A stretch of DNA of 38,072 nt, taken from NCBI GenBank assembly GCA_029881495.1, contig JAOUMJ010000004.1, positions 92,476-130,547 on the forward strand. The letters run 5' to 3'. Both the position numbers and the translations under genes were made by a program. The stretch comes from Nitrospinota bacterium (lineage in GTDB: Bacteria > Nitrospinota_A > UBA7883 > JACRGQ01). The notes below the pieces were generated by a model, which saw only the letters and a list, made by a program, of their open reading frames with translations, was not told the origin of the DNA and did not search any database. This document shows, piece after piece, positions 12,691-29,185 of this stretch (positions are counted from its first letter, which is position 1; each line of letters opens with the position of its first letter).

Positions 12691-12957
12691 TTATCCCGCA
12701 AGGCGGACGAACTTGATGAAAGGGAGGATTCTCTTGATATCTTCCTGTGAAAGCTCGTCACCTCTCCTGTATAGGTTCAGGATCTGCGCGTCAATCGCTT
12801 CGTAATGTCCGTTCCAGCAGTGGTAGGTAAGAAGAGGGGTGCCGGTGTTGTCGATTACCCTCGAAAACCAGATGGGCGCCTCACAATGCCTGCAGTGGCC
12901 GAATATCTTGGTATATTTTTTTGCCAATCTCGTCTGCGGGTCTATCCGTCCTGCCAT
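12691..12957 (-). CDS. Small Cys/His-rich protein, probable zinc-binding, unknown function
   Basis: This 88-residue product carries CRHC and, about twenty-five residues later, CWNGH, a pattern consistent with a single zinc ribbon or related treble-clef site. The remainder is basic at the N-terminus and helical at the C-terminus (DELSQEDIKRIL). It is the first gene of the ligA-lolD-clpS run and its TAA stop abuts the ligA GTG, so it is probably translated as a unit with ligA. I do not recognise a named family; a DNA- or RNA-binding accessory is possible but unproven. Confidence 0.7.
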   Translation of the reverse strand: MAGRIDPQTRLAKKYTKIFGHCRHCEAPIWFSRVIDNTGTPLLTYHCWNGHYEAIDAQILNLYRRGDELSQEDIKRILPFIKFVRLAG

Positions 12958-13026: not shown

Positions 13027-13043
13027 GGAGGCTGGAAATCCTG
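13027..13043 (+). promoter_or_regulatory. Ribosome binding site deciding a probable CTG start
   Basis: GGAGG at 13027-13031 lies nine bases before CTG at 13041-13043. In the ATP-grasp reading frame no ATG or GTG occurs near the conserved N-terminus. The only upstream in-frame TTG, at 12981, lies in the proposed -35 region. An ATG at 13025 is out of frame. Confidence 0.55.
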
Positions 13044-14159
13044 AAGATAAATTTTATCGGCGGTCGTGTACGCCCATTCGCTGAGCTGGCCTGCACCTTT
13101 GGCTACAAAGTGGGAGCGTTCGACCTCTTCAACGACTGGGATCTGGCGAAATTCATTATTGATGGGAGCGCCATCACCGGCAAAGAGACGAGAGAGCCGT
13201 CTTACAGTAAACCTTCCTGCTGGAATGATATTCGGCACGAATATAAGAAATTCGATATGGGGCCGATAATCTTCTGCGGGCCGATAGAGGCTACCCCTGA
13301 AGTGGCTGAAGAGGCAAGCCGGACGCGCGAAGTGTGGAACGCGCCGCCGGATGCGATGAGGAGATGCAGGGATATCCGGTTTTTACGGAGCATGGCGAGC
13401 GGCGGGATACTCTATCCATCGAATGATTTCGATGGGTCCGGGAGATGGATAAGAAAAGATCTTTACGGCGCCGGAGGAACGTCGGTCTCGGATTACAAAG
13501 GGGAAAAACTTCATGGAAGCGAATATACTCAGAGATATATTCAGGGGGGTTCGATCGGCGCTACCTATTTCACATCCGCGGGTGGGACATCCCTCCTCGG
13601 TGTTACGCGGCATTTGAACGGTTACGTGGCGTTTCGCCAGCCGGAGTTCTCCTTCGGCGGCATTCTTTATCCTGCCGTAATTGATGATGATGCCGATGTG
13701 ATGCTTGAGGAGTTTGGAAAGCTGGCTGGTGACGCTTCGGGATTGCGCGGTTTCTGGGGAGCGGACTTCATTCTCGGGGTGGACAAAAGGATTTGGCTGT
13801 TGGAGATAAATCCCCGCCCGACCGCGTCTTTAGAGCTTATCGCGAAGGAGCATGGTATCGATATTGTTTCGCTTCAAGGTGAGTCTGTACGTGGCGGCAA
13901 GGATAAGCATGAAAGGCTGGTGCAGAAGCCGGGGAGGTTTTCCGGCACCGCAGTCTGCTATGCGGAGGACGATCTGATATTCGCTTCACCCGGAATTTGG
14001 TTCGAAAAAGGGGGGAGAGACCTGCCGTATCACGGTGAAGCCGTCAAAAAAGGGGAGCCGGTGCTTTCCCTGTACGCTGAATCGGGTTCAGCCGAGGGTG
14101 TAATGCAGAAAATGGAAAAGCTGGCCGCAGAATTTTATCGAAAAGAGGTGCAGTTCTGA
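13041..14159 (+). CDS. ATP-grasp enzyme, substrate unknown
   Basis: The 372-residue protein begins with a Rossmann-like strand (KINFIGGRVRPFAELA), then DLFNDWDL, as in ATP-grasp proteins that act on carboxylates. The ATP-binding region includes WIRKDLYGAGGTSV; the metal site includes GADFIL and LLEINPRPTASLEL, with the Glu and Asn of the ATP-grasp fold. The C-terminal tail (GEPVLSLYAESGSAEG) looks like the end of biotin-carboxylase-type ATP-grasp proteins. I see some resemblance to ATP-grasp proteins found in tetrahydromethanopterin-linked clusters, but no other such gene is here. The probable start is CTG 13041. It leads a four-gene plus-strand block with a YwiC-like protein, a hydrolase and a MurF-like ligase. 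Confidence 0.82.
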   Translation: MKINFIGGRVRPFAELACTFGYKVGAFDLFNDWDLAKFIIDGSAITGKETREPSYSKPSCWNDIRHEYKKFDMGPIIFCGPIEATPEVAEEASRTREVWNAPPDAMRRCRDIRFLRSMASGGILYPSNDFDGSGRWIRKDLYGAGGTSVSDYKGEKLHGSEYTQRYIQGGSIGATYFTSAGGTSLLGVTRHLNGYVAFRQPEFSFGGILYPAVIDDDADVMLEEFGKLAGDASGLRGFWGADFILGVDKRIWLLEINPRPTASLELIAKEHGIDIVSLQGESVRGGKDKHERLVQKPGRFSGTAVCYAEDDLIFASPGIWFEKGGRDLPYHGEAVKKGEPVLSLYAESGSAEGVMQKMEKLAAEFYRKEVQF

Positions 14160-14184
14160 ACGATATTAGCGTAGTATATCGTCC

Positions 14185-14985
14185 ATGAGCGATACAAAAA
14201 TGATTATGCCGAAGGAACACGGGATGTGGGCCTGGATTCTTCTCCCCCTTATCGTCGGCATCGGAAGCGCCACAGGCCCAAAAGTTTTGGGGATGCCTCT
14301 GCTTATCTCGGTCATTTTATGGTTTCTCGCGTTCACACCGGCGAGAATGATATACAAAAACGCGAAAAAGGGGATACCGCAGTCTGACAATGTTATCAAG
14401 TGGTGCATCAGGTATTCGGCGCTGGGTCTTGCTTTTGTTTACGTTTCGCTGTCGTTGCAGATCCGCTCACTTCTTGTTTTTGCGCTCTTTGCTCCGCTTT
14501 TCTATTTTGGAGTGAGGGCTTCGTACGCGGGGTACCAGCGAAGTTTCATATTTGAGATTACGGGGATAGTTTTTCTTTCGCTACTCTCGTTCGGCGGAGC
14601 GCTCACGGTTTCCGGCACTCTGTCTCAAGCTGATGTCGCGGTTTGGGCGGTGTTGCTTCTGTTTCTACTCGACAGGAATCTTCAGGCGAGAAACGCCGTG
14701 AGGGGGGGGGATTGGTTCGAAGAGGAGCCGCCGAAGGCGAGCGAGCTGAGATTCGTATTCCGGATAAATATTTTCATAGCTCTTGCGTCGCTTCTGATAG
14801 CGTCGCTCCTGCTGGAATATTTCATGATGCCAAAAATCTATATGGCGGCTTTCCTGCCAGGTTTTCTTGCAACCGGTTATTTCTTCATGAGGCCGCCGAC
14901 ATCCGTGAAGAGCCTCGGGTGGATGGAAGTCGCGGTTGCTGTTTCCTACGCGATCATTTTTCTCTATCTAAAATCCACCTTATAA
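14185..14985 (+). CDS. YwiC-like polytopic membrane protein
   Basis: The 266-residue protein opens with MPKEHGMWAWILLPLIVGI, close to the N-terminal signature of the YwiC-like family (P-K-[EQ]-H-G-x-W-A). It has about eight membrane helices. The family's biochemical role is not established; its pattern of charged residues before helix one recalls membrane prenyltransferase-like folds, but I would not assign an activity. ATG 14185 has no clear Shine-Dalgarno; Met at residues 6 or 8 are alternatives. A 7-bp inverted repeat (ACGATAT at 14160-14166, ATATCGT at 14176-14182) fills the short gap after the ATP-grasp gene. Confidence 0.75.
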   Translation: MSDTKMIMPKEHGMWAWILLPLIVGIGSATGPKVLGMPLLISVILWFLAFTPARMIYKNAKKGIPQSDNVIKWCIRYSALGLAFVYVSLSLQIRSLLVFALFAPLFYFGVRASYAGYQRSFIFEITGIVFLSLLSFGGALTVSGTLSQADVAVWAVLLLFLLDRNLQARNAVRGGDWFEEEPPKASELRFVFRINIFIALASLLIASLLLEYFMMPKIYMAAFLPGFLATGYFFMRPPTSVKSLGWMEVAVAVSYAIIFLYLKSTL

Positions 14986-15073
14986 CCTGGCGGTGTGCCG
15001 GATCTTTTTCTTCTCAACCGGCATTTGCCACGCTGATGAAATGGGGCGCTCTAATGTCCTATAATCACCTCTA

Positions 15074-15841
15074 ATGTTTATAGAGGTTTCAGGCTGCAGG
15101 GTATATTTTGAAGAGGCTGGAAAGGGTGAACCCCTGCTCCTGTTGCACGGCTGGGGCGTTTCGAGCGAGACGCTAAAACCGCTCTTTTATCACCTTGCGA
15201 AGAGGAGGCATGTGCGCGTAATCGATTTTCCCGGGTTCGGACTTTCGAACGCTCCCCCATCCGGAGGTGGCGAGGTCTGGGGGACGAGTGAATACGCGGA
15301 GATGCTTCATTCCATTCTTGATTCGTGGGGATGGAAGGGGGCCGACGTATTGGCCCACTCTTTTGGATGCAGGGTGGTCATCCGCCTGATTGCGGGGAGG
15401 AAGGGATATTTCAAAAGACTTCTCCTCACCGGCGCCCCTGGGATCAGGCTGAAAGGGAGCGTCCCTCTTTACAAGAAAATCCTCTCCTTGGCCGGGAAGA
15501 TGTTTGCCTCGTTTGGCCCCCCCGGAAGATGGGTAAGGGGGAGGATATATGCAAAGATCGGTTCTGCCGATTACATCGCCGCAGGCGAGATGCGCGACAT
15601 ACTTGTAAAGGTTGTAAACGAGGATCTCTCCCCGCTTCTGGCGGAAGTGGAGAACGAGACCCTGCTGGTCTGGGGAGAAGCCGACACCGCGACCCCGCTT
15701 GAGATAGGGAAGAAGATGGAAGCTCTGATGCCAAACGTCACGCTCAATGTCATACCGGGAGCCGGGCATTACTCCTTCACGGAAAAGCCGGAGACCTTTT
15801 TCTCCATTGCCGACAGATTTTTCGAGCGGGATAACCGATGA
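15074..15841 (+). CDS. Alpha/beta hydrolase
   Basis: The 255-residue protein is a single alpha/beta-hydrolase domain. The oxyanion-hole strand is LLLLHGWG. The nucleophile Ser is about residue 96 in LAHSFGC, the acid Asp about 204 in VWGEADTATP, and the His about 232 in PGAGHYSF. There is no signal peptide, so it should act in the cytoplasm. It follows the YwiC-like gene by 88 bases and overlaps the MurF-like gene by four bases (ATGA), so the two proteins are probably made in fixed ratio. The start lacks a Shine-Dalgarno, and a TATAAT at 15060-15065 sits just upstream. Substrate cannot be read from sequence; an ester or peptide-like product of the ligase is a reasonable guess. Confidence 0.9.
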   Translation: MFIEVSGCRVYFEEAGKGEPLLLLHGWGVSSETLKPLFYHLAKRRHVRVIDFPGFGLSNAPPSGGGEVWGTSEYAEMLHSILDSWGWKGADVLAHSFGCRVVIRLIAGRKGYFKRLLLTGAPGIRLKGSVPLYKKILSLAGKMFASFGPPGRWVRGRIYAKIGSADYIAAGEMRDILVKVVNEDLSPLLAEVENETLLVWGEADTATPLEIGKKMEALMPNVTLNVIPGAGHYSFTEKPETFFSIADRFFERDNR

Positions 15842-17427
15842 CATATATTGATCTGGCGACAACCGCTGCATGGCTATTGATGTCCATAATGATAATGACC
15901 CGTTTCATCGCCATTCTGCAGAGTGAGCGTTATCACACCGATTCCTATCTGAAGTGGGTAATGGACGGCGGCGGGCTGAAGGTCTATTCGCCGGTGAAGT
16001 ACGACAAGCCGCTCCACTTTGTATGTCTTGCGATAATGGCGAGCTACTATTTTTCACCGTACAAGGTTCACATAGAGCAGTTGATCCTGACAGCCGGGGC
16101 CGTTTACTGGACGCTCACTCACTTCAGGGGGGTGAAATCGGGGAAAAAACCGTTCGCATTGACAGCGAGGGTGAAAAGGCTTTTCGTGATAACCATCGCC
16201 CTTGAAGGGCTCCTCCTTTTCGTAGCGTACCTGTTCGGCATGAGGATGTTCATCGCCTTGATAGTGCTTTTCGCGTACATGCAGCCGTTCCTCATCGCGC
16301 TTGCGAACATTATCGCCAAACCGGTCGAGCAGTTCTTTCAGCAGGGTTTCAAGAGAGCGGCGATGAAAAAGATCGCGGGGAAAAGGGTGGTCGCCATCAC
16401 CGGAAGCTACGGCAAGACCGGGACAAAGGAAGCGGTTGCGCATATGCTCGAAACGGCGTACCCGCTTTTGAAGACTCCGGGAAGCTACAACACTCCGATG
16501 GGGCTTTGTAAGGTAATAAACGACGAGATGAGCCCGCATCACGAAATCTTTGTTTCTGAAATGGGGGCAACGCGAAAAGGGGATATAAAAGAACTTTGCG
16601 AAATAGCCAGGCCGTCGATAGCGGTGATAACGAGCATCGGCGAGGCGCACATGGAAAGCTTCGGGTCGATAGAGAATGTTGCTTCGACCAAATTCGAGAT
16701 AGCCGAGGCGTTGCCGGATGACGGCGTGCTGGCATACAACAGCGATTACAAACTGGCGAGGGAGAGAGCCGGTGCGATTCCGCAAAGAACAGTCACCTTC
16801 GGTTTCGAGAACGGCGCGGAATACAGGCCGTATAACATCCGCTGTGACTCCAGGGGCTCGACTTTCGACTTGCAGACCCCCGGCGGAGTTGTCGAGGGTA
16901 TTGGCATAAAACTTCTTGGGCGGTTGAACGTGATAAACGTTGTCGCCGGGTTTGTCGTCGGAGAACTGATGGGGGTCGGCAGGGATAAGCTGAAGAACGC
17001 GGCGGCGACGCTTCCACAAATGGAGGCGAGGCTCCAGCTGCTTTCCACGGGGTCGTACCTGGTAATAAACGACGGTTTTAATTCAAATCTTCTCGGCGCG
17101 AAAGCGGCCACGGAAACGCTCTCCTATTTCGAAGGTTACAGGAGGATACTGGTGACCCCCGGGATAGTTGATCTCGGACATAAACATGAAGTGATAAATT
17201 TCGATTTTGGAAAATCGGCCGCCAGAAACTGCGACCAGGCTATCTTGATAAACGAGAGGCGCACGAAACCGCTGAAAAACGGTCTGCTGGCAGGAGGGAT
17301 GAAACCGGATGATATCAAGGTCTTCCCGTCACTGGCGGAAGCGAGGGAGTTTATCGACGAAACCGTGGGAGAGGGGAGCGTGGTTCTTTTTGAAAATGAC
17401 CTCCCGGACCATATGGAAGTATTTTAG
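15838..17427 (+). CDS. Membrane-anchored Mur ligase-family protein (MurF-like)
   Basis: The first 165 residues contain about five membrane helices, absent from ordinary MurF. A Mur ligase body follows: P-loop TGSYGKTGTKE about 188-198, then SYNTPMGL, the strand FVSEMGATRKGDI, the metal and carbamate region ITSIGEAHMESFGSIENVASTKFEI, and the C-terminal domain with VINDGFNSNLLGAKAATETL, resembling the DDxYNANP region of MurF. The family joins an amino acid or dipeptide to a carboxylate using ATP. Substitutions at conserved MurF positions and the membrane anchor suggest a different substrate, possibly membrane-linked. It is coupled to the alpha/beta hydrolase by an ATGA overlap and ends five bases from a convergent gene. 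Confidence 0.85.
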   Translation: MTYIDLATTAAWLLMSIMIMTRFIAILQSERYHTDSYLKWVMDGGGLKVYSPVKYDKPLHFVCLAIMASYYFSPYKVHIEQLILTAGAVYWTLTHFRGVKSGKKPFALTARVKRLFVITIALEGLLLFVAYLFGMRMFIALIVLFAYMQPFLIALANIIAKPVEQFFQQGFKRAAMKKIAGKRVVAITGSYGKTGTKEAVAHMLETAYPLLKTPGSYNTPMGLCKVINDEMSPHHEIFVSEMGATRKGDIKELCEIARPSIAVITSIGEAHMESFGSIENVASTKFEIAEALPDDGVLAYNSDYKLARERAGAIPQRTVTFGFENGAEYRPYNIRCDSRGSTFDLQTPGGVVEGIGIKLLGRLNVINVVAGFVVGELMGVGRDKLKNAAATLPQMEARLQLLSTGSYLVINDGFNSNLLGAKAATETLSYFEGYRRILVTPGIVDLGHKHEVINFDFGKSAARNCDQAILINERRTKPLKNGLLAGGMKPDDIKVFPSLAEAREFIDETVGEGSVVLFENDLPDHMEVF

Positions 17428-17432
17428 GCGTA

Positions 17433-18974
17433 TTAAGCGTTTGAAAGAAGGGCGAGAGCGTCCTTTGCTTCTTTCATATCCGGGCTGAATTGAAGAGCTT
17501 TTTCGAACTCTTCCTTTGCCTTTTTTTCGTTCTTCAGGGAATGATATGCTTTCCCGAGATTGTAATGCACATTTGAATCTTCAGGGTCGATGCTTAACGC
17601 CTTCAGATAGAATTCAACGGAAAGCTTCGGCTCATCCATGAGGCGGTAGCATATTCCGGTAAGGTTGTATGCCCTTATGTCCGAGGGATTTATTGTCGAG
17701 GAATTTTTAAGCATCTCTATAGCCTCCGAGAACATTCTTTGGTGCAGGTACGCTTCTCCAGCGATGAACGGTATGCGGGGGTCGTCCGGCTCCATGGCAA
17801 GAGCCTTGCCAAGCGAAAATTTGGCCTTCCCGAGATCGCCATCCTCAAGGTAATGGAGGAAGAGGTCGAGCCAGTCTTTCGCGCTTTCGGGAGTTATTTT
17901 CATGGCCTTTTTCATCACTTCCCTTGCTTCCGCTTCCATCCCGAGTTTTTTATAAACGCTGATAAGATTGAAGTAGGCGAGCACAAGGGTAGGGTCTACT
18001 TTGATCGCTTCATTGAATTCGTTTTTGGCTGTCTCCTGATTTTCCGGGCTGTCTTCTATCGCCAGGAGCGATTTACCGATACCCCAGTGCGATTTTGCCT
18101 TTATTCTGTTTGAGTCGGAAGGTTTATGCTTGCTTATCGCCTTTTTGAAAAATTCGATCGCCTTAACGTAATTCTTTTCACGCAACAAAGCTTCGCCGTA
18201 TTTGACGTTCGCCTCGGATGAATTGGGGTTTGAATTTACCAGTTTTTTAAGCTCCTCAACCTCTTCCTTGTGCATACCGGTTTTCTGGTAGCAGGTTTTA
18301 AGGAGCAGGTGCGCCCTCTGGTCGGTGAAATCTATAAAAACGGCGGAGCGGAGGATCGGGATGGCAGATTTGAAATCCCCTTCTTCGACCATATATTCGG
18401 CGATGGTTATATACGGCGACTTGCTCCACGGGGCGAGTTTTTTTATGTTTTCAAGTTCGCCTATCGCGCTTAAATTTAATTTTGTGCGGAACTCCGCGAT
18501 ATCGTCTGTTTGACCTTTCTCCCAAAACTGCTGAAGCGCAGCGTCGCGGTTCCTTTGAAGCCTTCTCACATAGTGATCGACAACCTTTGTAAGGCATGAC
18601 TGAAAATCCGCATTTGAAAAAGGCATTTTAAGAAACTCGATGCCGAGTTTTTTCAAGGTGCTTCTTTCGGTTTTTTCTATTTCTTCCGCCTCCAGAATGA
18701 TGGCGATGGCAGGAGGTAATTTCTTTTTCATCAATACGGTCGCGGTCTTGATGCCCCCCATCCCTTTCTTCGTAAACTGGGATACAAGGATCAGTTCGAA
18801 ATATTGGTTTTTTGCCGCGTCGTCATCGACTTTTCTCAGCGCAGTTTCGCCGATATCTGCTTCAACCACATTGATCGTATGATTTGATTCATGGGTTCTG
18901 TATGGCAGGGTCTCAAGGGCGCTTCGGACGTGCGAGATCTCAAAAGCCTTTTCACTGACAATGAGCACTCTCAA
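17433..18974 (-). CDS. Pseudo-receiver plus TPR-repeat protein (copy 1)
   Basis: The N-terminal 130 residues resemble a receiver domain but lack its chemistry: the acidic pocket reads LIVSEK instead of two Asp, and the phosphoacceptor position is Ser65 (LILVSQF). The rest is tetratricopeptide repeats, visible as AKSHWGIGKSLL, AYFNLISVYKKLG, and NVHYNLGKAYHSLKNEKKAKEEFEKAL. The protein should be a cytoplasmic scaffold that cannot be phosphorylated in the usual way. TTG at 18974 is chosen because it aligns with the paralog's ATG and has GAGGAG nine bases upstream; the TTG at 18983 touches that site. It lies 90 bases downstream of its paralog. Confidence 0.87.
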   Translation of the reverse strand: MRVLIVSEKAFEISHVRSALETLPYRTHESNHTINVVEADIGETALRKVDDDAAKNQYFELILVSQFTKKGMGGIKTATVLMKKKLPPAIAIILEAEEIEKTERSTLKKLGIEFLKMPFSNADFQSCLTKVVDHYVRRLQRNRDAALQQFWEKGQTDDIAEFRTKLNLSAIGELENIKKLAPWSKSPYITIAEYMVEEGDFKSAIPILRSAVFIDFTDQRAHLLLKTCYQKTGMHKEEVEELKKLVNSNPNSSEANVKYGEALLREKNYVKAIEFFKKAISKHKPSDSNRIKAKSHWGIGKSLLAIEDSPENQETAKNEFNEAIKVDPTLVLAYFNLISVYKKLGMEAEAREVMKKAMKITPESAKDWLDLFLHYLEDGDLGKAKFSLGKALAMEPDDPRIPFIAGEAYLHQRMFSEAIEMLKNSSTINPSDIRAYNLTGICYRLMDEPKLSVEFYLKALSIDPEDSNVHYNLGKAYHSLKNEKKAKEEFEKALQFSPDMKEAKDALALLSNA

Positions 18975-19064
18975 GGGAGCCAACTCCTCGCATGTGAAGA
19001 AGTGAAGGAAATTTCGTTGCAGGGAGCCTGTAAATTCTCAAATGGCGGTATATGCGAAGTCGTA

Positions 19065-20609
19065 TTAATTGACATTTTCCAGTTGAGCGATAGCTTCTTT
19101 GGCTTCGCGCAGGTCAGGGTTCAGATTCAGCGCCGTCTGGAAGGAATCCGTCGCTTTTCTCACATCCTTTAAAGCGGTGAATGCCTTTCCAAGATTGTAG
19201 TGCACGTTGAAATCCTTGGGATCTATTTGAAGCGCCTTTTGATAGTAATCCACCGAGCGTTTAGGCTCGTTGAGGTGCCTGTAGCAGATGCCGAGAGAGT
19301 TGTACGACCTGATCTCGGAAGGATATATCTCTATGGATTTTTCGAAATTTTCCGCCGCGTCCTTGAACATCCTTTGTCGCAGGAATGCTTCTCCGGCAAG
19401 GTAAAGCGTAAGAGGATTTTCCTCTTCCATGGAAAGCGATTTGTTAAGCGCGAATTTGGCTTTTGTCGTATCGCCGTCTTCGAGGTAGAAGAAAAAGAGG
19501 TCGAGCCAGTCCTTGGCGGTATTGGGAGTGATCTTTACCGCGCTCCTCATCACCTCTTCGGCTTCCTTTTGCATGCCGAGTTTCTTGTAGACGCTTATGA
19601 GGTTGAAATAGGCGAGCACAAGCGTCGGGTCTACGTTGATTGCGGCGTTTAATTCCTCTTTTGCCTGCTCCTGGAGATTTTTGTCGTCTCCCATTCCCAT
19701 AAGCGATTTTCCAACGCCGTAATGTGATTTAGCCTTTATCCTGTTTGAGTCGGTAGGTTTGTGATTGGCGATCGCCTTTTTGAAGAACTCGGCCGCTTTC
19801 GTGTAGTTGCCTTCCTGAAGGAGCGTTTCCCCGACGCGCGCATTTATTTCGGCCGATTTCGGGTTCTGCGCGAGGAGTTTTTTCAGTTCCCCCAATTCTT
19901 CCTTTGCCATGCCGATCTTCCGGTAGCAGGTCTTCAGGAGTTTGTGGGGCATCTGGTCGTTGAAATCAATCCGTATGGCTGTTCGTAGAAGAGTAATAGG
20001 GGTTTTAAAATCCCCTTCCTCTATCAGATACCGGCTGATAAGAAGATACGGCTTTTTGTTCCAGGGGGCGATTATCTTTATTTTTCCCAGTTCGTTGATG
20101 GAGCTTTTATTTATTTTGTGCCGGAATTCCGTGATGTTCACGGTCGCCCCCTGCGATTCTATACGCTTGAGCGCGTTCTCGCGGTTTCTCTCGACATTGG
20201 AAGCGACAGAGCCGACGACGTTCGACAGCGACTGTTCAAAATCCTCGAGGTTGTAGGGCATTTTCAAAAAGCCGTGAATTCCCGCCTTTGTCCCTGCGGA
20301 CATCATATCCTTGTCTATGAATTCAGTTACAAGGAGGATCGGCGGAACCGGAAGATTTTTTTTGGCGGCCAGGTTTTGCGCGGTCTGGAGACCGGAAAAT
20401 ATTTTCATTTTCTGGGAGATTATCAGAAGGTCGTAAACAGCCCCCTTTTTGGCGTCCGTTTCAAGCTTTTCCATGGCGGCCTTGCCGGAATTCGCCTCAT
20501 AGAAATCAATGCGTATATCCGACTCGTATATCTTGTATGGAGATTTTTCAAAATAGCCGCGCAACTGCTGTATTTCAAAACTTTTCTCGCTAACTATCAG
20601 AATTCTCAT
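19065..20609 (-). CDS. Pseudo-receiver plus TPR-repeat protein (copy 2)
   Basis: This 514-residue protein is colinear with copy 1. It has a degenerate receiver (LIVSEKSFE, Ser65 at the phosphoacceptor site in LLIISQKM, FLKMPY near the usual Lys-Pro), a linker, then TPR repeats such as AYFNLISVYKKLGMQKEAEEV and NVHYNLGKAFTALKD. Conservation of the same Ser in both copies suggests that loss of phosphorylation preceded the duplication. The ATG at 20609 has GGGAGA upstream. No kinase gene adjoins it. Receiver-TPR proteins occur in deltaproteobacteria-like genomes, but their roles are mostly unknown. Confidence 0.88.
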   Translation of the reverse strand: MRILIVSEKSFEIQQLRGYFEKSPYKIYESDIRIDFYEANSGKAAMEKLETDAKKGAVYDLLIISQKMKIFSGLQTAQNLAAKKNLPVPPILLVTEFIDKDMMSAGTKAGIHGFLKMPYNLEDFEQSLSNVVGSVASNVERNRENALKRIESQGATVNITEFRHKINKSSINELGKIKIIAPWNKKPYLLISRYLIEEGDFKTPITLLRTAIRIDFNDQMPHKLLKTCYRKIGMAKEELGELKKLLAQNPKSAEINARVGETLLQEGNYTKAAEFFKKAIANHKPTDSNRIKAKSHYGVGKSLMGMGDDKNLQEQAKEELNAAINVDPTLVLAYFNLISVYKKLGMQKEAEEVMRSAVKITPNTAKDWLDLFFFYLEDGDTTKAKFALNKSLSMEEENPLTLYLAGEAFLRQRMFKDAAENFEKSIEIYPSEIRSYNSLGICYRHLNEPKRSVDYYQKALQIDPKDFNVHYNLGKAFTALKDVRKATDSFQTALNLNPDLREAKEAIAQLENVN

Positions 20610-20795: not shown

Positions 20796-22295
20796 TTATT
20801 TGAATCGTGACAGCATTGCGGATACCACATGCCTGATGGAGCCCCTGTTTTCAGCATCGATAACCGCAAAGTAGTATGCCGTGAAAAAAAGAGTTGTATG
20901 AAGAAGCAGTTTTACGGGGAACAGAAAAGAGGGGCTGGAAATGAAATATACCGGTACAAATATCAATCCGGCGATAGCTGTTTTCAGCAAACCTGAAAAA
21001 ATCGAAAACAGCCCGGCATCCAGGTTTCTCCCGGCTAAGTAAACAAGGAGGAGAAGACCGACCGCCTGGCAAGCAAGTGTAGCGTAAACCACACCGATCA
21101 TCCCAACCGCCTCTACCATAATGAAGTCGAGCGCGATATTTGCCGTGGCGATGCCAACCGCAAGTTTAGCGGTTATTTCAGGTTTGTCGACAGCCTGCAT
21201 AACGAGGCGGGGGACGGTAGAGACTGCGCCCAAAAGCCATGCAACGCTCAGCCATTGAAGTATGGGAGCGGCAGGCGCGAAGTCTTCACCGACCCAGAGG
21301 CGGAGCATATCCTCCGCGTAGACAAAAAAGAAAACAGCAACGGGGATCAGTAGGGCCAGTGAATGCATGGTTCCCGATACGAATATGTTTTTTATTTCAT
21401 TGTTTCGTTTTTCGCCGTAAAGACCGGAGAGGGTAGGGAGGAGGACAGCTCCAAGCACCCCCGATACTTCCATAATCTTTATGGCAATGACATTCGCGAC
21501 AGAATAGAGCGCGACGGAAGCGGGAGTGAGCATGATGCCGAGAACGTATACGTCGCACTGGTTGATCGTCTGTCCGGCGGCCTGTGCGGTGAATGAGTAG
21601 GACTTGAACCGCATGGTATCTTTCATGGTTTTTCTGTCGAAAAGTTTCAGGCTCACCCTGATCTCCGGGAAATATTTCAGGAAAAGCATCATCGAGTGCG
21701 CCCTCCAGACAATCCCGCCGACCGTAATGACCGCAACAGCGGCTTCCGCGCTGTTCCACCTTTTCAGCGTGATGATAAGCGCGCCGAGGATAATCGTCTG
21801 GTAAAAGATCCGGAGCATGTTGTAGATATCAAATCGGTTTTGCGCGACGAAACCCTTGTTGTATACGTTCAGCGGGTAGAGGATTATCAATCCGGCGGCG
21901 ATGATGAAAAATATGTTTTTAAGGCTCTCCATCAATGCATGCGGGAAGGTGAAAAGGAGGTCTATCCCGTACCATGCGAAAATCAGGGTGAGGAGAGAAA
22001 AAAGAAATCCGAAGAAGATGCTGGTGGCAAAAAGCGTGGAGGCCACCCTGCTCTTCTCTTCGCTGTTTTGCGCTTCGGATATCTTTTTAACTATCGTGTC
22101 GCCGATACCTATGTCGATGTAGACGAAATACCCAGATACTCCCCCTACGAGGGCCAATAGCCCGAATGCGTCTGTTCCTATCAGGTCAATTACGGTGCGC
22201 GTGCCGACGAGCACGAGAATGAACTGCCAAAGCGCGCCGAAAGTATTCGTGGCGACATTTTTTCCGAATATCCTTGCGGTTGACGAATTGTTCAT
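20796..22295 (-). CDS. Oligosaccharide flippase (Wzx/MVF-type polysaccharide biosynthesis protein)
   Basis: The 499-residue protein has the length and about 12-14 hydrophobic helices of the polysaccharide-transporter branch of the MOP superfamily. The N-terminus (FGKNVATNTFGALWQF, LVGTRTVIDLIGTDAFGLLALVGG) matches the family pattern, as does the central PASVALYSVANVIA. Such proteins flip lipid-linked glycans across the inner membrane. No glycosyltransferases are nearby, so the glycan is unknown. Transcription is minus, downstream of tyrS and upstream of the TPR genes. Confidence 0.87.
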   Translation of the reverse strand: MNNSSTARIFGKNVATNTFGALWQFILVLVGTRTVIDLIGTDAFGLLALVGGVSGYFVYIDIGIGDTIVKKISEAQNSEEKSRVASTLFATSIFFGFLFSLLTLIFAWYGIDLLFTFPHALMESLKNIFFIIAAGLIILYPLNVYNKGFVAQNRFDIYNMLRIFYQTIILGALIITLKRWNSAEAAVAVITVGGIVWRAHSMMLFLKYFPEIRVSLKLFDRKTMKDTMRFKSYSFTAQAAGQTINQCDVYVLGIMLTPASVALYSVANVIAIKIMEVSGVLGAVLLPTLSGLYGEKRNNEIKNIFVSGTMHSLALLIPVAVFFFVYAEDMLRLWVGEDFAPAAPILQWLSVAWLLGAVSTVPRLVMQAVDKPEITAKLAVGIATANIALDFIMVEAVGMIGVVYATLACQAVGLLLLVYLAGRNLDAGLFSIFSGLLKTAIAGLIFVPVYFISSPSFLFPVKLLLHTTLFFTAYYFAVIDAENRGSIRHVVSAMLSRFK

Positions 22296-23649: not shown

Positions 23650-25332
23650 ATGAATTCCGGATTCAGCGTCTGCCTTGTTTATCCAAACCGCCGGGAGGTT
23701 GCGGAATCAAACCTCGGCTTCCAGAAGATATTCGGCGAGCTTGCGAAAATCCCCGGAACGGTTTGCGACCGTGCATATCTCCCTTCAGCCGGAGACGATC
23801 CAGGAGGGGGAATTACATCGCTGTTGTTCTCAAAACCTTTAAAGGAGTTTGATCTGATCGCCTTTTCCGTCACGTTTGAAATGGATTCCTTGAACATTCT
23901 TAAAATATTGGATACCTCCGGAATCCCGCTGAGAAGCGACGAGAGAGGGGACGCGATCCCCGTCATATGCGCGGGGGGGGTTGCGGTTACGCTGAATCCC
24001 GAACCGTTATCAGATTTTTTCGATTTTTTTGTCATAGGAGAAGGTGAGGCAGAAAGCGGCAACAGTGGCGAGAGCGCCGTTATGCGGATAGTCTCATCCC
24101 TTTCGTCGAGCCGAGGGGGCGACAGGAGGGAGAGGCTCTCCATTCTCTCGGAGATCGACGGGATCTACGTCCCCTCGCTTTACTCGGTCGAATATGATGA
24201 CAACGGCAGGATTACCTCCAGAAAGGCTCTCTCAGGCGCTCCAGAAACGATTGTGAGGCTCATCAACCTTGATTACTCAAAAAGCGGCATGGCCCAACTA
24301 GATGGATTCACGAGCTCCATTTTTGGCGGGAGCTTTCTGGTGGAAACCGGGAAGGGGTGTTCGCAGGGGTGCAGATTTTGCGCCGCCGGGTTCATTTACC
24401 GCCCTGTCCGGCATGTGTCGCTGGAGGCACTTCTTGAAAAAGCCGGAGAAGGGATCAGGGGGGAGAGTCGCATCGGGCTGATCGGTTCCGCCATATGCGA
24501 GCATCCCGACATAGATAAAGTCTACGACCGGATACTCTCCGAGGGGGGAAAGATAACCGTATCTTCACTCCGCATAGGCCTTGCGGGGAGAGGGACTTTT
24601 GAGCGATTGAAAAAGGGTGGGGCAAAGAGCGTGACGATGGCGCCGGAAACCGGGAGCGAGTCGCTCAGGCGGAGGATCAACAAACCGGTGACCGACAAGG
24701 AGATAATCGATGCGGTTGGAATGGCGGCGGAAGCGGGGATACTGAATGTGAAGTTATATTTCCTTTTTGGACTGCCGGGTGAGACGGAGGAGGATGTTGC
24801 GGCGATAGCCTCGCTTGCAAGGAGAGTGAGGGACCGATTTGTGGAGATGTCCAAGCCCCACGGTCGCGCCGGGAAAATTTCGATCAGCGTAAATCCGTTC
24901 GTTCCAAAACCTTTCACCCCTTTTCAGTGGGAACCTTTTTTCGACGCATCGGCGCTGAAGAAGAGGTCAAAGCTTATCCGGTCCGAGTTCGGGAGAGAGA
25001 GCAATATCGATATTTCTGTGGAGAGTACGCGCACAGCCGCGGCGCAGGCCTTTCTTTCATTAGGAGACAGGCTCACGGGACGTTTGCTGATGGAGATATA
25101 TGGAGGTAAAAGCTGGAGCGAGATACTGAAGATGAAAGAGGCAAAGAACATTTATGCGCGGCGGAAGGATATCGGGGAAATTCTGCCGTGGGATTTTATC
25201 GACAGTGGAGTAGAAAGAGATTATCTTGTGAAGGAGTACCGCAAATCCGAAAAGGGGGAAACCACTTCTCCATGCCTTCCAGCCTTAAGCGGCTGCGTGA
25301 GATGCGGAGAGTTCAAGGGGGTATGTTCATGA
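23650..25332 (+). CDS. Radical SAM protein with N-terminal B12-binding-like domain
   Basis: The 560-residue protein carries the 4Fe-4S motif CSQGCRFC (Cys 237, 241, 244, spacing CxxxCxxC) in a radical SAM barrel with APETGSESLRRRINKP and FGLPGETEED, typical for the superfamily. The first 200 residues have an alternating alpha/beta arrangement like the B12-binding domains fused to such enzymes (compare the TIGR03960-type group), but the cobalamin-ligating DxHxxG is not seen. Two more cysteines lie at the C-terminus (GCVRCGEFKGVCS). Its reaction is unknown. It overlaps the start of pgeF, so the two are coupled. Confidence 0.85.
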   Translation: MNSGFSVCLVYPNRREVAESNLGFQKIFGELAKIPGTVCDRAYLPSAGDDPGGGITSLLFSKPLKEFDLIAFSVTFEMDSLNILKILDTSGIPLRSDERGDAIPVICAGGVAVTLNPEPLSDFFDFFVIGEGEAESGNSGESAVMRIVSSLSSSRGGDRRERLSILSEIDGIYVPSLYSVEYDDNGRITSRKALSGAPETIVRLINLDYSKSGMAQLDGFTSSIFGGSFLVETGKGCSQGCRFCAAGFIYRPVRHVSLEALLEKAGEGIRGESRIGLIGSAICEHPDIDKVYDRILSEGGKITVSSLRIGLAGRGTFERLKKGGAKSVTMAPETGSESLRRRINKPVTDKEIIDAVGMAAEAGILNVKLYFLFGLPGETEEDVAAIASLARRVRDRFVEMSKPHGRAGKISISVNPFVPKPFTPFQWEPFFDASALKKRSKLIRSEFGRESNIDISVESTRTAAAQAFLSLGDRLTGRLLMEIYGGKSWSEILKMKEAKNIYARRKDIGEILPWDFIDSGVERDYLVKEYRKSEKGETTSPCLPALSGCVRCGEFKGVCS

Positions 25333-26111
25333 TAAAGACCAAACTGCACCGCAACGAATACGACGGCGTCGCCTGGTATACGTTTAAGGAGATTGCCGAA
25401 CTCCATTTCCTGAAACACTGGATCACCTCCAGGCAAGGCGGGGTAAGCGACGGCGGATACAAGGGGTTGAACCTGGGTGATCATGTCGGCGACGCCGATT
25501 CAAACGTATCGAAGAACCTGAAGACAGTAAGCTCTCTCTTTTGCGAAGGGAGAAAAATATATCTTCCGAATCAGGTGCATTCGAACAGGGTCGCGGAGAT
25601 ATCGTCCCCCGGCGGGAAGAGCCGTAAAGATTGCGATGCCGTGGTGGTCGAAAGCCGAGAGACCCCGATAGGGGTGCTGACCGCAGATTGCCTCCCTGTA
25701 TTAATTGTCGATCCGCACAGGAAGGTTGCCGGAGTCGTTCACGCCGGGAGGATGGGTGTGTTCATGGATATTGCCGGTGAGACGGTGCGGAAGTTGGAGA
25801 CTTTATTTGGCGCGAAGGCGCGGGAGATGATCGTCGCCATCGGGCCCGGCATCAGGGAGTGCTGTTATGAGGTCGGGGAAGATGTTTTTTCAGGCTATGA
25901 GAACTATGCAAGGTACAGGAACAGCGCGGGCAGGCTCGACATGGTGACGGCGGTGGCCGATTCCCTCTCAGCAAGGGGAATATTGAACGACAATATCTTC
26001 GACTGCGACATATGCACGTCGTGTAAAAATGACGAGTTTTTTTCCCACAGGAAACAGGGGCTCTCCGGCGAAAAGGCCGGGAGGTTTATGACCGGCCTGG
26101 AGATATTTTAA
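25329..26111 (+). CDS. pgeF: PgeF/YfiH/LACC1-family multi-copper-like purine nucleoside phosphorylase
   Basis: The 260-residue protein has the DUF152 motifs: TSRQGGVSDG near the N-terminus, LPNQVHSNRV, GVLTADCLPVLI, the zinc-ligand VVHAG, IGPGIRECCYEV and ICTSCKNDEFFSHRKQG. Relatives phosphorolyse or deaminate purine nucleosides and were earlier called polyphenol oxidase or peptidoglycan-editing factor. The usual HAGWRG reads HAGRMG here, changing the Trp and Arg positions. ATG 25329 overlaps the radical SAM stop (ATGA) and lies seven bases after AAGGGGG; ATG 25323 is possible but too close to it. Confidence 0.88.
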   Translation: MIKTKLHRNEYDGVAWYTFKEIAELHFLKHWITSRQGGVSDGGYKGLNLGDHVGDADSNVSKNLKTVSSLFCEGRKIYLPNQVHSNRVAEISSPGGKSRKDCDAVVVESRETPIGVLTADCLPVLIVDPHRKVAGVVHAGRMGVFMDIAGETVRKLETLFGAKAREMIVAIGPGIRECCYEVGEDVFSGYENYARYRNSAGRLDMVTAVADSLSARGILNDNIFDCDICTSCKNDEFFSHRKQGLSGEKAGRFMTGLEIF

Positions 26112-27892: not shown

Positions 27893-29185
27893 ATGAAATG
27901 TCCAAAATGCAGGTACGTAACTTTTGAGCATTTGACGAGATGCGGCAAATGCGGCGAAGACCTTTCTGCGCACAAGTCTGAGCATGGTATAGATTTTCCA
28001 TCGTACAGAACTTATTCGGTTGTCTCTTCGGCCAACAGAAGCAGGCATCCGATCAAAGCCGGTATCGCGGCAATGAATAATTTATCCGGCATTTCCATGC
28101 CTGGCGCTGAAAAGGGGGAGGGAGAAATTTCAACACTTGGCGGGGCCGGGTTTGAGGAGGTATCCGCGTCCGGCCTGGAGACAACCAGTGAAGAGCCTTT
28201 TCTCGGCTTAGAATCTGAAACTCCGGCAATCGGGGAAGAGCTTGGATTGGACAATGTAGAGATAGATAACACTTTATCCGGCGATAGCCTTGAAACGGAT
28301 ATGGAACTGGATGCTTCCGACGGGGATTCCATTGATCTTGGACAATATGACGAGGTCTCAGAGGAAGAGCAGGGGCGTGAGAGCGAAGTGGCGCAGGGGG
28401 AAACCATCCATGACGGCGGGATAGATTTCTCGCTCGACTCGGTTGATGAGATATCAGAAGAAGAGCAAGGGCGTGAGAGCGAAATGGCGCATGATGAAAC
28501 CATCCATGACGGTGGAATAGATTTCTCGCTCGACTCGGTTGATGAGATATCAGAAGAAGAGCAGGGGCGTGAGAGCGAAATGGCGCATGATGAAACCATC
28601 CATGACGGTGGAATAGATTTCACCCTTGATTTGGCTGGGGAGGAAGGGGAGCCCACTGGGACAGAAGCCGTTCCATCTGAAGAGGTCCATTCCAAAGATG
28701 ACACGGAAGATGATATTGAAACTCAAATAGATAAGAGCGGAGAAGCGCCAGGCTTTAATAAGGGGGAACCGGAGGTTCTTCAAGAGATGGATGATGAAGA
28801 GGGTGAAGCAGCACGCGAGAGAGTGGCAGAAGCCGAACCGATTTTAGCTGCCGCAGAGGCAGGTGCAACAGTGGATGATTTATTGGAGACGGACGGATTC
28901 ATACTCAGCGACAGCGCGATTTTGCCTGTGACAAATTCTGGCGACTATGCAGGTCAGGTTATTGAGCTTGAATTCGACGCAGGGGAGTTGGAGATAATTT
29001 CATCCGGAGGTGCGCCGGCCAAAGCTTCCAAGGCAAACGCCGGAAATAAAAAGGATGCAAGAGTTTCTGAAAGAACGGACACACTTGATATTGACTCCAT
29101 AGATATTGCAGGTATTGAAGACGGGGATGAGGATACGACTGAAATTCTTGATAATCTGAACATTGATATCGAAGATGAAGATTGA
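27893..29185 (+). CDS. Zinc-ribbon, highly acidic repeat protein
   Basis: The 430-residue product starts with a zinc ribbon (CPKC about residues 3-6 and CGKC about 17-20). After a basic linker it is extremely rich in Asp and Glu and looks disordered. Residues 153-248 are three consecutive 32-residue repeats of the form DE[IV]SEEEQGRESE...ETIHDGGIDF. Shorter echoes of acidic-hydrophobic motifs (IDFSLD, LDIDSIDIAG, LDNLNIDIED) continue to the end. It has no membrane segment. The stop lies inside the following RDD gene, so the two are probably co-expressed. Function is unknown; a zinc-ribbon head with an acidic tail suggests a protein-interaction role. Confidence 0.85.
   Translation: MKCPKCRYVTFEHLTRCGKCGEDLSAHKSEHGIDFPSYRTYSVVSSANRSRHPIKAGIAAMNNLSGISMPGAEKGEGEISTLGGAGFEEVSASGLETTSEEPFLGLESETPAIGEELGLDNVEIDNTLSGDSLETDMELDASDGDSIDLGQYDEVSEEEQGRESEVAQGETIHDGGIDFSLDSVDEISEEEQGRESEMAHDETIHDGGIDFSLDSVDEISEEEQGRESEMAHDETIHDGGIDFTLDLAGEEGEPTGTEAVPSEEVHSKDDTEDDIETQIDKSGEAPGFNKGEPEVLQEMDDEEGEAARERVAEAEPILAAAEAGATVDDLLETDGFILSDSAILPVTNSGDYAGQVIELEFDAGELEIISSGGAPAKASKANAGNKKDARVSERTDTLDIDSIDIAGIEDGDEDTTEILDNLNIDIEDED
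28349..28636 (+). repeat. Three tandem 96-bp coding repeats
   Basis: Units at 28349-28444, 28445-28540 and 28541-28636 each encode 32 residues. Units two and three differ at only one base over the first 81 bases and diverge in the last 15; unit one is more diverged. Near identity at synonymous sites implies recent duplication or gene conversion. Confidence 0.95.

Follow-up and report, generated by a model that had tools for sequence, protein, structure and literature searches.

A membrane MurF, a partner hydrolase and an altered Ddl replace textbook murF and ddl in several bacterial groups

We analysed a 38,072-nucleotide stretch of a Nitrospinota genome (contig JAOUMJ010000004.1 of assembly GCA_029881495.1; hereafter the window), in which a gene for an alpha/beta hydrolase runs into a gene for a membrane-embedded relative of the peptidoglycan ligase MurF, here called MurFm. 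MurFm almost certainly replaces canonical MurF. Judged by gene content, the hydrolase, MurFm and an altered D-Ala-D-Ala ligase (Ddl) are kept together across several lineages, and this trio stands in for the textbook genes in several groups of bacteria. On balance we favour the view that the hydrolase and MurFm, together with a Ddl encoded elsewhere in this genome, form a variant module that carries out the final amino-acid addition to the peptidoglycan precursor, in place of canonical murF and ddl.

The window genome holds five Mur_ligase_M genes: MurFm, the genes for MurE, MurD and MurC on contig C16, and one more on contig C4. The division and cell wall (dcw) cluster on C16 is otherwise normal, with mraY directly after murE and no ddl between murB and ftsQ. 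The same murE-mraY order, without murF or ddl, recurs in three relatives (L073, L074 and L075), which with L026 make up the four complete dcw clusters of the family that were examined. The curated MurF model, TIGR01143, has a cut-off of 288.6 bits. Searched with this model, 10 of 11 family genomes gave the membrane version as their match, always below the cut-off and missing the first ~58-70 model positions, and none of these ten has a canonical MurF. In other families of the class, most genomes have a canonical MurF well over the cut-off and a short Ddl, and none of the 16 MurFm genomes tested in other groups has a MurF over it. The initial annotation had proposed a separate envelope ligation pathway and had itself named, as evidence that would speak against it, a finding that this is the organism's only murF; since MurFm is the sole murF here, that proposal is not supported.

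MurFm has the middle and C-terminal Mur ligase domains, the P-loop and the catalytic residues of a MurF. It scores 199 bits against TIGR01143, from model position 68 and under the cut-off, and in all members the match begins at position 58-76, the UDP (uridine diphosphate)-binding N-terminal domain being absent. In an AlphaFold2 model (mean predicted local distance difference test, pLDDT, 84), helices stand in place of that domain (long helices at residues 3-29, 56-72, 78-94, 110-133 and 135-179), and 34 of 52 homologues have five hydrophobic windows before the P-loop (range 2-6). The model and the family hydropathy thus bear out the roughly five N-terminal helices of the initial annotation, and the altered motifs it had reported can be read in the translation (P-loop TGSYGKTGTKE, and INDGFNSN). 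The closest neighbours of the model in the PDB, by Foldseek, are MurF enzymes, above MurE and MurC. In a tree of the ligase domains, 48 MurFm sequences form one clade (bootstrap 100, SH-like approximate likelihood ratio test 100) that is sister to 23 canonical MurF (99/96), with MurC, MurD and MurE outside, so the proposed derivation from MurF holds. The genomic replacement argues that MurFm, like MurF, would ligate D-Ala-D-Ala to a tripeptide precursor. Membership of the MurT family was not found: MurFm scores 18-19 bits against the MurT models (cut-off 800), and its partner is an alpha/beta hydrolase.

A quick first tree, superseded for clade support by the ligase-domain tree since it had just five canonical MurF rows, nested the window family among other MurFm lineages. 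This nesting, together with the loss of murF and ddl from the dcw cluster, suggests a secondary acquisition of the module by the family.

The wider distribution of MurFm was searched in 385 genomes drawn around the window genome. MurFm matches of at least 343 bits occurred in nine genomes outside the family, from seven or eight GTDB families, and two more, G185 and G330, have a form that has diverged further. The trio lies in the flanks of MurFm in the genomes outside the family, except in G438, where it is spread over three contigs (MurFm on C27, a Ddl with the diagnostic motif described below on C70, and the hydrolase, at 212 bits, on C45); G011, a member of the same class without MurFm, gives only background hydrolase scores (46 bits). 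The trio sits exactly between murE and mraY, the slot of murF, at four loci (L139, L140, L145 and L146), and between ftsI and mraY at L141. A Christensenellaceae genome (Bacillota) encodes hydrolase, MurFm and Ddl in one run and has no canonical MurF. Across the 121 genomes of its order, Christensenellales, 97 have MurFm, 16 have canonical MurF only, 3 are ambiguous and 5 unresolved; at the loci sampled there, the hydrolase accompanies MurFm in 20/20 and Ddl follows in 19/20. Plasmid records searched for named MurFm hosts gave canonical murF matches only.

The hydrolase adjoins MurFm in each of the ten family genomes with a MurFm gene and in distant lineages, an adjacency far beyond chance. 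The overlap of its stop codon with the MurFm start (ATGA), noted in the initial annotation, is present in the window and recurs at L056, L058, L063, L064 and L035. Its catalytic triad (S96/D204/H232) is invariant in 53/53 sequences, and on this sequence evidence the hydrolase is a constant partner of MurFm with an intact active site. The neighbours of its AlphaFold2 model (pLDDT 84) are esterases and C-C hydrolases, which indicate no single reaction. In Campylobacter jejuni, preliminary attempts to delete Cj0796c, the hydrolase gene between ddl and murF, failed (PMC5530802). We consider it likely that the hydrolase is functionally required. An apparent natural hydrolase-MurFm fusion, a 770-aa frame in G137, proved to be a long open frame overlapping the hydrolase only. 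Elsewhere in the window, positions 25188-26111 encode a PF02578 (YfiH/laccase-like) protein. Some PF02578 members (PgeF) edit peptidoglycan precursors and would be a precedent for a hydrolase that proofreads the products of a Mur ligase.

The third member of the trio is distinctive in its sequence. The Ddl of the module scores above both family cut-offs (NF002528, 340 bits vs 262; TIGR01205, 294 vs 245.65). In all trio Ddls examined (42, plus those of G438, G185 and G330), a motif of the type NxxPG(S/A)xxxxL(W/F) stands where the ordinary NTxPG(F/M)TxxS is expected; the ordinary motif was present in 19/19 long Ddls from genomes without MurFm. When the motif is masked, the Ddl tree fits a single origin of the trio type, although it counts two changes rather than one owing to a mis-extracted row (L160, branch length 10). 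The Ddl of Helicobacter pylori (2PVP) bears the pocket motif of the trio Ddls, NPIPGSLANYLF. Wu et al. in 2008 reportedly singled out the same segment and saw an E. coli ddl mutant complemented, which we take as a lead only.

The trio Ddls all lack the serine of the pocket for the second D-Ala (the last residue of NTxPGxTxxS), which corresponds to Ser286 of the Burkholderia pseudomallei Ddl, among the residues in contact with D-Ala-D-Ala (PMC6899670). This loss would fit a stem peptide that ends in another residue (D-Ala-D-X or D-Ala-Gly) because the changed pocket takes a different acceptor, as would the tabulated Km2 (Michaelis constant for the second D-Ala) of the motif-bearing H. pylori enzyme, 627 mM, a value footnoted as the maximum D-Ala concentration tested, others lying between 0.07 and 5 mM (PMC6899670). 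We nevertheless think such a peptide unlikely: the trio Ddls keep the omega-loop K-Y of D-Ala-D-Ala ligases, and Christensenella intestinihominis, a species that may or may not carry the trio, is sensitive to vancomycin (PMC7937921). A Ddl of the D-Ala-D-Lac type is not indicated either, since the K-Y is retained. As a separate observation, contig C5 of G000 holds three further clustered Ddl-like ATP-grasp matches (~101000-107850), one of them in a 723-aa frame, and large relatives of these occur in G012, G015 and G016.

Where MurFm might act is suggested by its conserved sites, compared in an alignment of 53 divergent sequences. Only five residues of the membrane domain are invariant (Q28, Y32, T109, R111 and R114), together with the P-loop residues, H271, K285, R398, D412 and N415 in the ligase domain; K285 stands where the family has its carbamylated lysine. 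With the ligase domain in the cytoplasm, the two loops bearing the membrane-domain invariants would lie on the cytoplasmic side; the second of them is strongly positive. The Q/Y/T/R/R cluster looks like a substrate site, a prediction from conservation. In canonical Mur ligases it is the N-terminal domain that binds uridine and also contacts pyrophosphate (PMC6085368). Because this domain is missing and an invariant polar site lies in the membrane domain, we infer a lipid-linked tripeptide as acceptor, with about even chances of being right; there is a precedent for dispensing with a UDP-binding domain in MurT/GatD, whose substrates are lipid I/II but not UDP precursors (PMC6085368). The membrane-linked acceptor of the initial annotation is to this extent plausible, the UDP-binding domain being gone and the invariant residues lying on the cytoplasmic face of the membrane.

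In the mechanism that we propose, Ddl would make the D-Ala-D-Ala dipeptide, and MurFm, at the cytoplasmic face of the membrane, would use ATP to activate the tripeptide carboxylate and couple the dipeptide to it. The acceptor would most likely be a tripeptide on lipid I or II, held at the membrane surface by the invariant cluster. The hydrolase might edit wrong products, unmask a carboxylate left unbound by the altered Ddl, or have a structural role with retained catalysis. A substantial possibility, to which we give less weight, is that MurFm is an ordinary MurF acting on soluble UDP-MurNAc-tripeptide, its membrane domain merely positioning the enzyme near MraY. The catalytic core and the lysine at the carbamylation (KCX) position are conserved, the literature has C. 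jejuni MurF making UDP-MurNAc-pentapeptide (PMC5530802), and H. pylori MurF was co-purified with shape proteins, which would fit a localised enzyme (PMC7012605). However, the UDP/pyrophosphate-binding domain is absent in every MurFm member, five absolutely invariant residues are not expected of a mere anchor, and the dedicated hydrolase and altered Ddl are left unexplained.

Several observations weigh against a replacement module with a lipid-linked acceptor. The window genome is 97% complete, and G003, a fragmented assembly from the same family, has neither type of MurF. G086, also a fragmented metagenome-assembled genome and counted among the 97 Christensenellales genomes, has both systems. 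The published annotation of C. jejuni MurF assumes UDP-MurNAc-tripeptide (PMC5530802), and the membrane domain could recognise UDP in some other way. At the G086 loci (L152, L158 and L159) we see an apparent canonical Ddl-MurF pair and a split trio, either contamination or a real transition state.

The murC-D-E-F order, in which every substrate is a UDP-linked precursor, is to our knowledge generally presented as universal. A bolder and tentative reading, which we think less likely than not, is that the pentapeptide is not finished on UDP-MurNAc in these lineages: MraY would take the tripeptide, a membrane machine of Ddl, MurFm and hydrolase would add D-Ala-D-Ala on the lipid carrier, and the hydrolase step would be obligatory, for example in unmasking or editing a dipeptide no longer held by its carboxylate in the altered Ddl. 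The lineages concerned would be the Nitrospinota family, most Christensenellales, probably Campylobacterota including H. pylori, and others. A monophyletic MurF that sits in the membrane, lacks the UDP-binding domain and is tied to a hydrolase and a Ddl with a changed pocket would imply that a sizeable share of bacteria, Helicobacter and Campylobacter probably among them, completes the wall precursor differently. The module offers a possible reason why H. pylori Ddl is reported to bind the second D-Ala weakly, and gives a candidate job to Cj0796c, an apparently essential hydrolase. MurFm is also a possible narrow-spectrum target, and classical MurF inhibitors could fail to hit it.

The four consecutive plus-strand genes of the initial annotation are all there, with Pfam families assigned (Table 1), but they are two separate units. 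Hydrolase and MurFm form a conserved one; the ATP-grasp and YwiC-like genes, which had been placed in the same block, are unlinked from it in most relatives. They are an independent conserved adjacent pair that merely neighbours the module: ATP-grasp_3 adjoins YwiC in five genomes (G000, G001, G002, G004 and G007), on a different contig from MurFm in three of these (G002, G004 and G007), and YwiC is found in 20/24 Nitrospinota genomes, some without MurFm. The ATP-grasp reading frame opens at a TTG at 12921, the listed start at 13041 being an internal CTG. We considered its product as the amino-acid ligase of the module and ruled it out, since the gene is unlinked in most relatives; the actual partner is the distinctive Ddl, unlinked here and linked elsewhere. 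The idea that all four genes form a non-peptidoglycan pathway, in which a different amino acid or peptide is joined to an acceptor in the membrane, draws on their order in the window genome and on the same four genes in G001, the only relative with all of them together. We consider it very improbable, as MurFm is the only MurF and occupies the dcw slot of murF in other genomes, and the ATP-grasp/YwiC pair is not linked to it in most relatives.

Table 1. Features of the hydrolase-MurFm locus and the adjoining gene pair (window coordinates)
Feature	Position	Strand	Remarks
ATP-grasp_3 protein	13041..14159	+	PF02655, E 9e-12; outside the module; start codon uncertain
YwiC-like membrane protein	14185..14985	+	PF14256, E 5e-17; outside the module
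Alpha/beta hydrolase, partner of MurFm, 255 aa	15074..15841	+	PF00561, E 7e-20; triad Ser96-Asp204-His232
MurFm, membrane MurF, 529 aa	15838..17427	+	PF08245, 1e-40; PF02875, 9e-8
ATGA overlap of hydrolase stop and MurFm start, translational coupling	15838..15841	+	
N-terminal membrane domain of MurFm, ~5 helices	15838..16377	+	AlphaFold2 helices, hydropathy; profile match begins downstream
LQxxxY motif of MurFm	15916..15933	+	Q28, Y32 invariant in 53/53 MurFm
TxRxxR motif of MurFm	16162..16179	+	T109, R111, R114 invariant in 53/53; positively charged loop
ATP-binding P-loop of MurFm, TGSYGKTGTK	16399..16428	+	
INDGFNSN motif of MurFm, at the position of canonical DDxYNANP	17065..17088	+	D412, N415 invariant

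Other genes of the window include two adjacent tetratricopeptide repeat proteins of 516 and 514 aa on the minus strand (17433-20609), the second with a response-regulator domain and likely a duplicated pair; a polysaccharide flippase with a weak MurJ match (20796-22295; 41 bits); and a 430-aa plus-strand open reading frame with no Pfam match at 1e-5 (27893-29185).

We found no description of a membrane MurF, or of the trio as a distinct route, in the open-licence papers searched. With canonical MurF, MurFm shares the middle and C-terminal ligase domains, the P-loop, the catalytic residues and, in some genomes, the position between murE and mraY; it differs in having no UDP-binding N-terminal domain, in its roughly five membrane helices, in NDGFNSN for DDxYNANP, in forming a separate clade and in its constant hydrolase partner. 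MurT of the lipid II isoglutaminyl synthase MurT/GatD is likewise a Mur ligase homologue acting on lipid I/II rather than on UDP precursors (PMC6085368), but it has a glutaminase partner and amidates D-Glu. The closest parallel is the ddl-hydrolase-murF cluster of Campylobacterota, in which the same three functions are adjacent (Cj0798c, Cj0796c and Cj0795c in C. jejuni; PMC5530802); we group H. pylori murF (HP0740) with it. There Ddl is linked, whereas in the Nitrospinota family of the window it is unlinked, on contig C2 in the window genome. G185 and G330 carry Ddl, hydrolase and MurFm with the diagnostic Ddl motif, as in a cluster of the Campylobacterota type, and the nearest match of the G330 Ddl is that of H. 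pylori, 2PVP (E 1e-110). From these relatives, the MurF enzymes of Campylobacter and Helicobacter are probably themselves MurFm. The literature that we found on Campylobacterota MurF does not describe it as a membrane MurF without a UDP domain or as part of a cross-phylum module, and H. pylori Ddl was studied alone, without its partners; no partner system had been brought in to explain why it binds the second D-Ala weakly. Because the component genes are already known and annotated in Campylobacterota, the membrane MurF and its trio are a variant and not a new kind of system.

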